DNA of 64,000 nt from Thermodesulfovibrionales bacterium (GTDB lineage: Bacteria > Nitrospirota > Thermodesulfovibrionia > Thermodesulfovibrionales > SM23-35): NCBI GenBank assembly GCA_031082155.1, contig JAVHLL010000013.1:1-64000 (forward strand), given 5' to 3'. The number at the start of each line of letters is the position of its first letter. The first letter of the stretch is position 1. A program made the translations under genes and the position numbers. This document shows, piece by piece, positions 57,472 to 62,340 of this stretch. Under the pieces are notes generated by a model, which was given only the letters and a program-made list of their open reading frames with translations, was not told where the DNA came from and did no database searches.

Positions 57472-57536
57472 TAAATATCTTGCCAAATTTAATTTGACTA
57501 ATAAGGAATTCTTATCGTTCTATGAGAAATATGAAT

Positions 57537-57565
57537 TTGACTTAAACAGAGCGGGTGCATATAGT
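57537..57565 (+). promoter_or_regulatory. Strong sigma-70 promoter of the adk-sat-apr operon
   Basis: TTGACT (57537-57542), exactly 17 bases, TATAGT (57560-57565), with an AT-rich upstream stretch. The start would be near 57572, giving a leader of about 145 bases before adk, in which the hairpin at 57619 lies. Confidence 0.68.
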
Positions 57566-57618
57566 TATATGTCTGTATTTTATTTTTTAAGCTCTGCCAC
57601 GTAATTTTTTAGTTTAAG

Positions 57619-57653
57619 AAACAAACACATTGCTTATGGGAATGTGTTTGTTT
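57619..57653 (+). promoter_or_regulatory. Perfect 13-bp hairpin in the adk leader
   Basis: AAACAAACACATT (57619-57631), nine-base loop, AATGTGTTTGTTT (57641-57653), no mismatch. A T-rich stretch follows. It is either an RNA structure (attenuator or stabiliser) or a DNA operator with 13-base arms. The position inside the leader of the sulfate-reduction operon makes it a regulatory candidate. Confidence 0.65.
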
Positions 57654-57716
57654 TGACTAATTTGTTGTTTTAGCCGTTTTTTAATTTTCATCAAAAAATT
57701 CAACGGGGGTACAACT

Positions 57717-58364
57717 ATGAGAATTGTGTTGCTTGGCGCACCAGGTGCTGGAAAAGGGACTCAGGCAAAGAAATTGATCGAGAAATATGGCATGCCGCAG
57801 ATTTCGACAGGGGATCTTTTAAGGGCAGCGGTTTCCGCAGGCACTTCCCTTGGCAAAGAGGCAAAGTCATACATGGACAAAGGCGAACTCGTTCCCGACA
57901 GTGTTGTCTTGGGTATGGTCGGGGAGAGACTCAAACAGGATGATTGCAAGAAAGGGTATATCCTCGACGGATTCCCGAGAAATACTGCCCAGGCAGAAGC
58001 ACTCGACAAAATGCTCGCTTCGCTTGATATGTCGCTTTCAGGAGCACTCAGTGTTGATGTGCCTTTTGAGGATTTAATGAAGAGACTGACCGGAAGAAGA
58101 ACCTGCAAATCATGCGGTCAGATGTACAATGTTTATTTCGGCCCGCCCAAGAAAGAAGGAACCTGCGATAAATGCAGCGGCGACCTGTTCCAGAGGGATG
58201 ACGATAAGGAAGCTACCATTAAAAAGAGGCTTGAAGTGTATACTGCCCAGACAGAACCGCTGATTGGATATTACAAGAAAAAAGGAATCCTGAAGTCGGT
58301 TTCCGGTACCGGCAGCATCGATGAGATATTCAAAAAAGTCTGTGAGACATTAGGTCTTCAGTAA
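57717..58364 (+). CDS. adk: Adenylate kinase (zinc-lid type)
   Basis: 215 residues, the long-lid form. P-loop GAPGAGKGTQ at residues 7-16; DGFPRNTAQA marks the AMP-binding and core region. The lid has four cysteines (CKSCGQMYN and CDKCSG), typical of zinc-binding adenylate kinases. Ribosome site GGGGGT before ATG. It converts AMP plus ATP to two ADP. Placement in front of sat and aprBA fits recycling of the AMP released by APS reductase. Confidence 0.96.
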   Translation: MRIVLLGAPGAGKGTQAKKLIEKYGMPQISTGDLLRAAVSAGTSLGKEAKSYMDKGELVPDSVVLGMVGERLKQDDCKKGYILDGFPRNTAQAEALDKMLASLDMSLSGALSVDVPFEDLMKRLTGRRTCKSCGQMYNVYFGPPKKEGTCDKCSGDLFQRDDDKEATIKKRLEVYTAQTEPLIGYYKKKGILKSVSGTGSIDEIFKKVCETLGLQ

Positions 58365-58413: not shown

Positions 58414-59634
58414 ATGGCGTTAGTAAATCCACTTGGAAAAGAAAAGAAACTGAAACCCCTTTTACTTGAAGGGGCAGCGCTGGAAGCAGAGAAGAAAAAA
58501 GCAGCAGGACTTAAAAAAATCAATATCGGCTCGCGCGAAACCGGTGACCTCATTATGATGGGTATCGGCGGTTTTACACCGCTGACTGGCTTCATGACAA
58601 AGGCCGACTGGAAGGGTGTATGCGCAGACATGAAGATGGCTGACGGTCAGTTCTGGCCGATCCCGGTTACTGTTTCCGCATCAAAAGCCGATGCCGATAG
58701 CATTAAAGAAGGTGAGGAGATTGCACTTTTCTCCACAGAATTCAACGAGATCATGGCAACCATGAAGGTAACTGAGAAGTACACCATCGACAAAGCATAT
58801 GAGTGCCAGCAGGTTTACAGGACTACCGAGGTTGAACACCCCGGCGTCAAGATGGTTATGGATCAGCCTGAAGTGAACCTCGCCGGGCCGGTCAAGGTTT
58901 TGAGCGAAGGCACTTTCCCGACTGAATATCCGGGTCTTTATCAGCGCCCTGCCGAGACCAGAAAGTCATTCGAGGAAAAAGGCTGGAGCCGCGTGGCAGC
59001 ATTCCAAACCAGAAACCCGATGCACCGTTCACATGAATTCCTCGCCAAGATCGCAGTAGAAGTATGCGATGGTGTTTATATTCACATGCTGCTTGGCAAA
59101 CTGAAACCCGGCGATATACCGTCGGATGTAAGGCAGAAATGTATTGATGTGCTCGTAGACAAATACTTTGTCAAGAATACCGTTCAGGTTGGCGGTTATC
59201 CTCTTGATATGAGATATGCAGGCCCGAGAGAGGCCCTTCTGCATGCAGTATTCAGGCAGAATTATGGCTGCAGCCATCTTATCGTAGGCCGCGACCATGC
59301 AGGAGTCGGCGAGTATTATGGTCCTTTTGATGCCCAGCAGATTTTTGAACAAATCCCGGCTGGTTCATTGGAGACCAAGCCGCTTAAGATCGACTGGACA
59401 TTCTATTGCAACGCATGTGAAGGCATGGCTTCCCAGAAGACCTGCCCGCATGGTAAAGATGACAGGATTCTCCTTAGTGGAACCAAGCTGAGAAAGATGC
59501 TCTCCGAGGGCGAAACAGTCACAACGAAGTTCAGCCGGCAGGAAGTCCTTGATATCCTTCAAGCATACTACGCTGGTCTTACCGAGAAGGTCGAGATCAA
59601 GCTGCATAAATATGCAGAGGGCGAAAAGAAGTAG
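58414..59634 (+). CDS. sat: ATP sulfurylase (sulfate adenylyltransferase)
   Basis: 406 residues, the homo-oligomeric dissimilatory type. It makes APS and pyrophosphate from sulfate and ATP. Catalytic motifs [13 protein letters not shown] and GRDHAGVG are present, and a C-terminal zinc-like cluster [16 protein letters not shown]. Ribosome site AAGGAGG. The 49-base gap after adk is compatible with one transcript. No pyrophosphatase is next to it. Confidence 0.97.
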
Positions 59635-59851: not shown

Positions 59852-60271
59852 ATGCCAAGTTTTGTAATTACTGAAAAGTGTGATGGCTGTAAGGCAGGGG
59901 ACAAGACTGCTTGCCAGTATATATGTCCTCACGATCTCATGATCCTCAACAGAGATACGATGAAGGCTTACAATCAGGAGCCTGAACAGTGCTGGGAATG
60001 CTTTAACTGCGTAAAGATCTGCCCTCAACAGGCGGTTGAGGTAAGAGGCTATTCAGACTTCGTTCCCCTTGGATCACAGACTATTCCTTTGAGAGGCTCT
60101 GATAATATCATGTGGACGATCAAATTCAGAAGTGGTCTGACCAAGAGGTTCAAATTCCCCATCAGGACCACCGTGGAAGGCAGCGTTGACCCTTATGCAG
60201 GAAAGCCGGAGCCTGATTTCGCAACGATCAAGAAGCCTGGGTTTTTTAACACACCAGCAAGAACTGAATAA
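59852..60271 (+). CDS. aprB: APS reductase beta subunit
   Basis: 139 residues. It carries two [4Fe-4S] clusters: Cys10, 13, 21, 25 (CDGCKAGDKTACQYICP) and Cys47, 50, 53, 57 (CWECFNCVKICP), where the first set has the AprB-type spacing. It passes electrons to the FAD of AprA. The C-terminal tail that wraps AprA is present but short. Ribosome site AAGGAGG, 20 bases before aprA. Cytoplasmic. Confidence 0.97.
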   Translation: MPSFVITEKCDGCKAGDKTACQYICPHDLMILNRDTMKAYNQEPEQCWECFNCVKICPQQAVEVRGYSDFVPLGSQTIPLRGSDNIMWTIKFRSGLTKRFKFPIRTTVEGSVDPYAGKPEPDFATIKKPGFFNTPARTE

Positions 60272-60290: not shown

Positions 60291-62294
60291 ATGGAAAAAG
60301 AAACCTGTACATTTTCATATTGTAAGAAGCCGGATGTTACCGAAGTTGAATGTGATCTCCTGATCATGGGCGGCGGTATGGCCGGATGCGGTGCAGCTTT
60401 TGAGGCATGCCGCTGGGCAAACGCCAAAAAGATGACAGTCGTTATGGTTGATAAGGCTGCAACAGACAGAAGCGGCGCAGTCGCCATGGGTCTATCTGCT
60501 ATTAATACATACGTCGGCGAAAATAAAGTCGCTGATTACGTGAAATACGTAAGGAACGACCTCATGGGCATTATCAGGGAAGACCTCGTATTTGACCTTG
60601 GAAGGCACGTTGATGATTCCGTCCAGTGTTTTGAAGAATGGGGACTCCCGATCTGGAAAAAAGGAGATGACGGATTCTCAATGGACGGCCATCAGGCTAT
60701 CGCAGCCGGCAAGAAATCCCTGAAGGACGGCGGCACACCGGTAAGGACCGGTAAATGGCAGATCATGATCAATGGTGAGTCATACAAAGTTGTTGTTGCC
60801 GAGGCCGCAAAGAAGGCACTTGAGACGAACAGAGCTGCAACCGGTATGGCACAGAACCATTATGAAAGAGTCTTCATTGTGAAGGCTGTAATGGACAAGA
60901 ATGGCAAAAACGTAGCAGCAGCCATTGGATTTAGCACAAGAGAAAACAAGATCTATTCCTTCAAAGCAAAGGCAATGCTTTGCGCAACTGCCGGAGCGGT
61001 CAACTGCTTCAGACCGAGGTCGGTCGGTGAAGGTATGGGAAGGACCTGGTACCCGGTGTTTTGCGCCGGTTCAGGTTATGCGTTCGGCATGCAGGCAGGA
61101 GCCGAGCTGACCCTTATGGAAAACAGGTTCGTACCTGCAAGATTCAAGGACGGTTATGGTCCTGTCGGCGCATGGTTCCTGTTCTTTAAGGCAAAAGCTA
61201 CTGACAGCTATGGTGAAGACTATTGTACCAATAAAGAGTACTTTGACGATGCAATCGCAAGATACGGCGACTATGCAAAGAATTTGGGTACCGCCATCAG
61301 GAACCATCTGATGATGAGGGCCATGAGGGACGGGAAAGGCCCGATCCTTATGCAGACCCCTTCAGCGCTGGAAATAATCTCCAAGAATATGAAAGAGAAG
61401 CTCGGTGAAAAAGAAGGCGCCAAGCAGGTCAAGCACCTTGAGGCAGAGGCATGGGAAGATTTTCTTGACATGGCTATCGGACAGGCATCTCTCTGGGCAG
61501 CATGCAATATTGAGCCGGATAAGGTTGCTTCCGAGATCATGCCGACAGAGCCTTATCTCCTCGGTTCACATGCCGGCTGTGCAGGGTTCTGGGTAAGCGG
61601 TCCTGGCGATCTTCCGGGCACACCGGAACATTACACCTGGGGATATAACAGAATGACAACCGTACCCGGTCTCTTCATGGCTGGTGATGTTGTCGGCGCC
61701 TCAGGCCACAAATTCTCCTCAGGCTCACATGCTGAAGGCAGAATGGCAGCAAAGGCTGCGCTCGCATACATCCTCGACAATGCGGGCTACAAGCCGGATC
61801 CAAAACTGACCCTTGATGAGATTGCGGCTGAACTCTATCTGCCGTTCGAGATCTATGAGAAATATAAAACCTACACAACCGATCCCGTGATTAACCCCAA
61901 CTACATCGGCCCTAAGGCGCTTCAGGCAAGACTGATGAAGATCGCCGATGAATACTTTGGTGGTTGCTCTACCTGGTATATGACCTCAAAGACCATGCTT
62001 GAGGAAGGTCTCAGAAAGCTTGACATGCTCAAGGAGGATTGCAACAAAATGGCAGCAAAAGACCTCCATGAGCTCTTAAGGTGCTTTGAGAACTACCATA
62101 GAATTCTTTCAGTCGAGGCACATGCAAGGCACATCCTCTTCAGGGAAGAGTCCAGATATCCCGGCTACTACTACAGAGGTGACTTCAATAAGATTGATGA
62201 CGCCAACTGGAAATGCTTCACAAATTCCGTGTACCATGCTGATAGCAACACATGGGAGTTCAAGAAAGTACCGTACGTACAGATGTATCCATAG
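60291..62294 (+). CDS. aprA: APS reductase alpha subunit
   Basis: 667 residues. The FAD-binding N-terminus CDLLIMGGGMAGCGAAFEA and the blocks DRSGAVAMGLSAINTY, RNDLMGIIREDLV and SSGSHAEGRMAAKAAL mark the fumarate-reductase-like flavoprotein. It reduces APS to sulfite and AMP. Its length and the YPGYYYRGDFNKIDDANWKCFTN end match dissimilatory AprA. The transcript ends with a terminator 14 bases after the stop. Confidence 0.98.
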   Translation: MEKETCTFSYCKKPDVTEVECDLLIMGGGMAGCGAAFEACRWANAKKMTVVMVDKAATDRSGAVAMGLSAINTYVGENKVADYVKYVRNDLMGIIREDLVFDLGRHVDDSVQCFEEWGLPIWKKGDDGFSMDGHQAIAAGKKSLKDGGTPVRTGKWQIMINGESYKVVVAEAAKKALETNRAATGMAQNHYERVFIVKAVMDKNGKNVAAAIGFSTRENKIYSFKAKAMLCATAGAVNCFRPRSVGEGMGRTWYPVFCAGSGYAFGMQAGAELTLMENRFVPARFKDGYGPVGAWFLFFKAKATDSYGEDYCTNKEYFDDAIARYGDYAKNLGTAIRNHLMMRAMRDGKGPILMQTPSALEIISKNMKEKLGEKEGAKQVKHLEAEAWEDFLDMAIGQASLWAACNIEPDKVASEIMPTEPYLLGSHAGCAGFWVSGPGDLPGTPEHYTWGYNRMTTVPGLFMAGDVVGASGHKFSSGSHAEGRMAAKAALAYILDNAGYKPDPKLTLDEIAAELYLPFEIYEKYKTYTTDPVINPNYIGPKALQARLMKIADEYFGGCSTWYMTSKTMLEEGLRKLDMLKEDCNKMAAKDLHELLRCFENYHRILSVEAHARHILFREESRYPGYYYRGDFNKIDDANWKCFTNSVYHADSNTWEFKKVPYVQMYP

Positions 62295-62307
62295 TTATTT
62301 GGGAGAT

Positions 62308-62340
62308 GGGGGAGGGTAAAACCTCCCCCGTTTTTTTCTT
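62308..62340 (+). terminator. Rho-independent terminator after aprA
   Basis: GGGGGAGG (62308-62315), six-base loop GTAAAA, CCTCCCCC (62322-62329), then a G and seven T. A textbook terminator separating the apr message from the qmo genes. Confidence 0.9.

Follow-up and report, generated by a model that had tools for sequence, protein, structure and literature searches.

LysR-type transcriptional regulators (LTTRs) generally act through tandem promoter sites, namely a recognition site and an activation site (PMC11739112). One of them, YeiE, binds sulfite; its role is in the tolerance of sulfite and in assimilation rather than in respiration (PMC12880088). For sulfate reducers, a predicted regulator is HcpR of Desulfovibrio, a CRP/FNR family protein with the consensus TTGTGA-N6-TCACAA, which was predicted to be a repressor and whose predicted regulon has sites at sat and apsAB and excludes dsrAB (PMC545781). 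In the literature that we searched, which covered few subscription papers, we did not find any single regulator with control over sat/apr as well as dsrAB. Among LTTR systems, the half-sites of OxyR and BenM/CatM are of the ATAG/ATAC type, and a regulator gene divergent from its target is common in this family, although not defining. Here we describe the promoter region of an adk-led sulfate reduction operon in a Thermodesulfovibrionales bacterium, where a conserved control element can be told apart from an eye-catching, unconserved hairpin.

The adk-sat-aprBA operon and its promoter

In the window, i.e., the whole stretch of 64,000 nucleotides that was analysed, adk (57717..58364, forward strand; adenylate kinase, 215 aa) is followed on the same strand by sat (58414..59634; ATP sulfurylase, 406 aa), aprB (59852..60271; APS reductase beta subunit) and aprA (60291..62294; APS reductase alpha subunit), which is the gene order that the earlier note had given. 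APS reductase releases AMP, and Adk returns AMP to ADP. The order adk-sat-aprB is kept in all 30 sat loci compared (the genome itself and 29 relatives, from most families of the order), and therefore broad synteny backs the idea that the operon is arranged for AMP recycling. Together with the layout, this supports the co-expression that the note had proposed, and co-transcription of adk with sat-apr is supported by the arrangement of the genes. A strong intrinsic-terminator-like hairpin (62301..62336, forward strand) ends the adk-sat-aprBA unit before qmoA, so that qmoA is probably a separate transcription unit.

The sat gene (58414-59634) has 75.4% nucleotide identity to its counterpart in a same-genus relative (G001), compared with 96.6% for adk and 95.0% for aprB, while the G001 gene is 77-88% identical to sat of other genera in the family. 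Judged by these identities, sat of the source genome appears to have been replaced in situ.

A sigma-70-type promoter, TTGACT-N17-TATAGT, is located at 57537..57565 on the forward strand (10/12 matches), with its −35 hexamer beginning 36 nt past the start of the first of the two boxes described below. The strong promoter that had been proposed here is thus borne out, and an upstream alignment shows that its hexamers are conserved across other genera of the family. The alignment supports conserved control of the adk promoter.

A conserved two-box element upstream of the −35

Directly upstream of the −35 are two 15-bp boxes of the ATAA-N7-TTAT type (T-N11-A), spaced 21 bp apart. Box 1 (ATAAGGAATTCTTAT, 57501..57515, forward strand), a T-N11-A dyad centered at about −64 from the predicted transcription start, is the predicted LTTR recognition site, and box 2 (ATGAGAAATATGAAT, 57522..57536, forward strand), which lies 21 bp after box 1 and abuts the −35, is the predicted activation site. 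In the upstream alignment, the arrangement reads as box 1 (ATAAG-N5-CTTAT), 6 nt, box 2 and then the −35, and among 26 chosen adk/sat sites the TTG of the −35 begins 36 nt after the start of box 1 in 25. The outer T-A pair of box 1 is complementary in 25/25 adk, 23/26 dsrA and 26/27 dsrC sites, counts for which the sites were partly picked by matrix score. The palindrome of box 2 is clear for the most part at dsrA and dsrC, and not so in the adk class. The idea of a regulator's binding site at this operon, raised in the earlier note, is better placed at the conserved two-box site upstream of the −35 than at the leader hairpin.

A model built from 24 adk/sat sites (R1) identified the element in 54 of 61 relatives, where a genome usually has a single strong site, either at adk or immediately at sat. 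The element is found before adk even where Sat is of a distant type (29-37% identity). In one genome (L095), adk and sat are each preceded by the element. In one family (f3; L029, L030, and L033), the element is absent before adk, where other TTGACA promoters are found, and is kept before dsrC.

Target genes of the element

Weaker R1 matches first pointed to dsrA and dsrC. Using a matrix derived from adk/sat sites only, same-register sites were found in 24 of 29 dsrA upstreams and in 22 of 30 dsrC upstreams, in each case with a score that no more than 1 of 100 dinucleotide shuffles attained; box 1 is at a fixed register before adk/sat, dsrA, and dsrC. The dsr consensus is roughly ATAA-N9-AT-N6-ATAA-N7-TTAT-TTGAC, derived from sites selected for TTG and AT at fixed positions, with the register being a selection criterion. 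As for the suggestion that dsrAB, qmo and related genes might share the leader hairpin, dsrAB does share an element with adk, but it is the two-box site and not the hairpin, and a matrix scan found no two-box site before the qmoA of the window.

A combined model (R2) of 59 sites was then used to scan 118 Nitrospirota genomes (E ≤ 0.01), with matches assigned by their positions relative to gene coordinates. It returned 91 matches genome-wide, 82 of which are at adk-sat, dsrA or dsrC (28 at adk-sat, 33 at dsrA, 18 at dsrC, and 3 opposite-strand reads of such sites). Outside the order used for training, in families that gave no training site, 28 of 31 matches are at these same genes. In the source genome (2.65 Mb), the two best R2 matches are the dsrC and adk sites and the dsrA site ranks sixth, while by the adk-trained matrix the dsrA site is the best in its 18-kb stretch. 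Among the 9 other R2 matches are weaker ones (L355, L360, and L368) upstream of a dsrEFH-like cluster, a gene resembling H+-translocating pyrophosphatases, and genes for ATP synthase subunits (named from translations), all of which are possible further regulon members. At three loci (L065, L066, and L076), dsrA has its site in common with a bamA-like gene that diverges from it on the opposite strand.

A candidate LysR-type regulator

The geometry of the element is of the LTTR type, and our regulator survey was confined to this family, of which the genomes encode few members. LTTR1, a protein of 302 aa encoded on another contig of the source genome (C35:7866-8774, reverse strand), is the only LTTR common to all 14 genomes checked, which represent 13 families; G056 and G021 hold a single full-length LTTR each. 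A second conserved LTTR group was rejected as the binder because it is absent from G056, G021, G060, and G052, all of which have the element. Of the 118 genomes, 43 have LTTR1 together with the element and 62 have neither, with LTTR1 alone in 8 and the element alone in 5 (Fisher p ~2e-18, not corrected for ancestry). This co-occurrence is confounded by shared ancestry, which inflates the statistics, and by dsr itself, as LTTR1 also co-occurs with dsrA (p ~1e-16).

The promoters of LTTR1 genes provide a further line of evidence. Scored with a matrix made from target sites only, a box with a score of at least 10 is present in 43 of 79 LTTR1 promoters (named genomes) vs. 14 of 773 control genes from these loci, and at a score of at least 13 the numbers are 25 of the 79 vs. 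none of the 773 control upstreams; no such box was found in the promoters of other LTTR genes. The single box extends over the −10 or falls between the −35 and the −10, a position from which binding would repress, and it is consistent with autorepression of LTTR1 in many relatives. No box was found in the LTTR1 promoter of the source genus or of neighbouring lineages.

Among named sequences, LTTR1 is closest to proteins from Thermodesulfovibrionales and other Nitrospirota MAGs, and among solved structures CbbR, YeiE and an unnamed LysR protein are some of the nearest. Its relatedness to YeiE, combined with sulfite binding by YeiE, makes sulfite or APS no more than a reasoned guess for the effector of LTTR1, for which Cbl offers a second precedent. 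No sat, apr or dsrAB gene is among the conserved neighbours of LTTR1, nor was any other conserved sulfate-gene link seen in its neighbourhoods. On one contig (G123:C272, L231), a dsrA gene with the site and an LTTR paralogue of 37% identity are about 11 kb apart.

The genome sequences themselves show that the element is shared, that its geometry is fixed, which genes it precedes, that it co-occurs with LTTR1 and that LTTR1 promoters carry the box, and from this we infer both LTTR1 as the binder and activation as the effect. We consider it likely that LTTR1 binds the two-site operator at the adk-sat-aprBA promoter and activates the genes of sulfate respiration. In this model, an LTTR1 tetramer would hold box 1, the recognition site at about −64, and box 2, the activation site at about −43 against the −35, and would bring sigma-70 RNA polymerase to the promoters of adk-sat-aprBA, dsrAB and dsrC, which would raise the sulfate respiration enzymes in concert. 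In addition, LTTR1 might repress its own gene in many relatives, through the single 15-bp box overlapping its core promoter.

Alternatively, the two-box element could be a real sulfate-respiration operator with another binder, such as a CRP/FNR protein, a response regulator or a protein of some other type, and LTTR1 would itself be one of the targets. This fits with the naming of LTTR1 for an association with selenium and with the distance of its gene from the proposed targets, and the evidence for the regulon does not depend on LTTR1. However, the T-N11-A tandem geometry is of the LTTR type, and where LTTR1 promoters carry the box, its placement at the −10 or between the −35 and −10 resembles that seen in autorepression. 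Further, the HcpR-type motif that had been suggested for this promoter was not detected: known HcpR consensus sites are absent there, the nearest HcpR-like match (57679-57696, 3 mismatches) is in the leader, and the total in the window is at chance. Therefore, we regard a different binder as unlikely, though the most credible of the alternatives to LTTR1.

It is much less plausible that the element is a mere A-tract or UP-like enhancer of strong sigma-70 promoters that involves no regulator at all. The element is indeed very A/T-rich and abuts the −35, the same position that UP elements occupy. However, a general enhancer would not account for a set of genome-wide matches concentrated at adk-sat, dsrA and dsrC (82/91) instead of at other strong promoters, and the genome-wide R2 scans did not bring up the many comparable sites at promoters of rRNA or ribosomal protein genes that would favour such an enhancer. 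Box 1, at −64, is moreover palindromic and has positions that do not vary, and the register is fixed at 36 nt.

Taken together, these findings make LTTR1 a candidate for the sulfate respiration switch that has been missing for Nitrospirota, and the analysis provides a named candidate regulator, an exact predicted operator and a defined set of targets. Sulfate reducers of this phylum are widespread and mostly uncultured, and the candidate could be checked in cultured Thermodesulfovibrio. A broader hypothesis, which we advance tentatively and hold to be possible rather than probable, is that one LTTR, sensing a pathway intermediate, for example sulfite or APS, serves as a phylum-wide master activator of dissimilatory sulfate reduction in Nitrospirota, with the operator staying in place while the sat genes downstream of it are exchanged time and again.

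The leader and its hairpin

The predicted transcript has an AU-rich leader of about 145 nt (57572..57716, forward strand; start predicted); of 200 dinucleotide shuffles of this leader, 199 fold less well (z −3.0). The leader contains the perfect 13-bp stem with a 9-nt loop that had been noticed in the sequence (57619..57653, forward strand; arms 57619-57631 and 57641-57653, 13 nt each and 100% complementary), and this hairpin outscores all 40 shuffles of the leader. The T-rich RNA reported to follow it is real as a U-rich stretch, but the intrinsic-terminator scan does not list the hairpin. An Rfam scan of the window returned nothing but a tRNA, with no family matching the hairpin.

The hairpin is restricted to the genus. 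It occurs as a single copy in the whole genome, its stem has one G-U pair and a bulge in the sole same-genus relative, and the same leader stretch in other genera is AU-rich and lacks it; hairpins that beat shuffles were found in only a few relatives' leaders. We therefore rejected it as a repeated or conserved element, and its absence beyond the genus is the very result that the earlier note had named beforehand as refuting its proposal. Perfect and significant against shuffles as the stem is, control of the operon by attenuation or by a regulator bound at this place is hardly tenable for a hairpin with one copy, a damaged stem in the sister species, no counterpart in other genera and no terminator signature, the conserved leader hairpin plus terminator signature of a transcription attenuator not being found here. 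At most, this lineage-specific hairpin may have a local effect on RNA stability or translation.

A CTCTGCC-like motif is also present in leaders of the family, some 25-35 nt past the start (here 57588-57602), and could pair with the ribosome-binding site (57700-57716). Such long-range pairing was rejected, being significant in only 5 of 37 leaders.

Comparison with known systems

In its layout, the element resembles the LTTR promoters of OxyR and BenM/CatM, with a T-N11-A dyad near −65, a second site against the −35 and fixed helical spacing, and, in many relatives, with one box placed over the promoter of the regulator gene itself. Of the features that characterize LTTR promoters, we found the recognition dyad near −65, the phased second site by the −35 and, outside this genus, a regulator gene with its own site, and we did not find a divergent regulator in the LTTR1 neighbourhoods. 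Unlike in OxyR and BenM/CatM systems, the half-site is ATAA-N7-TTAT rather than ATAG/ATAC, the spacing is 21 bp, the LTTR1 gene is not divergent from its proposed targets, and these targets are genes of dissimilatory sulfate reduction.

By profile, LTTR1 belongs with the selenium metabolism-associated LysR proteins of NCBIfam NF040786 (292 bits in the source genome, with other members at 294 and 253 bits, vs. a cut-off of 250). In line with that name, LTTR1 is beside selD (named from translation) in G056. However, no selenium link was seen beside LTTR1 of the source genome, and in contrast to the family name, the evidence presented here ties LTTR1 to sulfate respiration genes. With YeiE, LTTR1 shares effector-domain blocks such as IGNYxLP, GSGTR, and EAIK, but its score of 204 bits is below the YeiE cut-off of 480. 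Finally, LTTR1 is similar to HcpR in being a predicted regulator of sat and aps/apr genes in sulfate reducers, and the regulon proposed here differs from that of HcpR in that the adk promoter lacks the HcpR consensus and the element is also present before dsrA.
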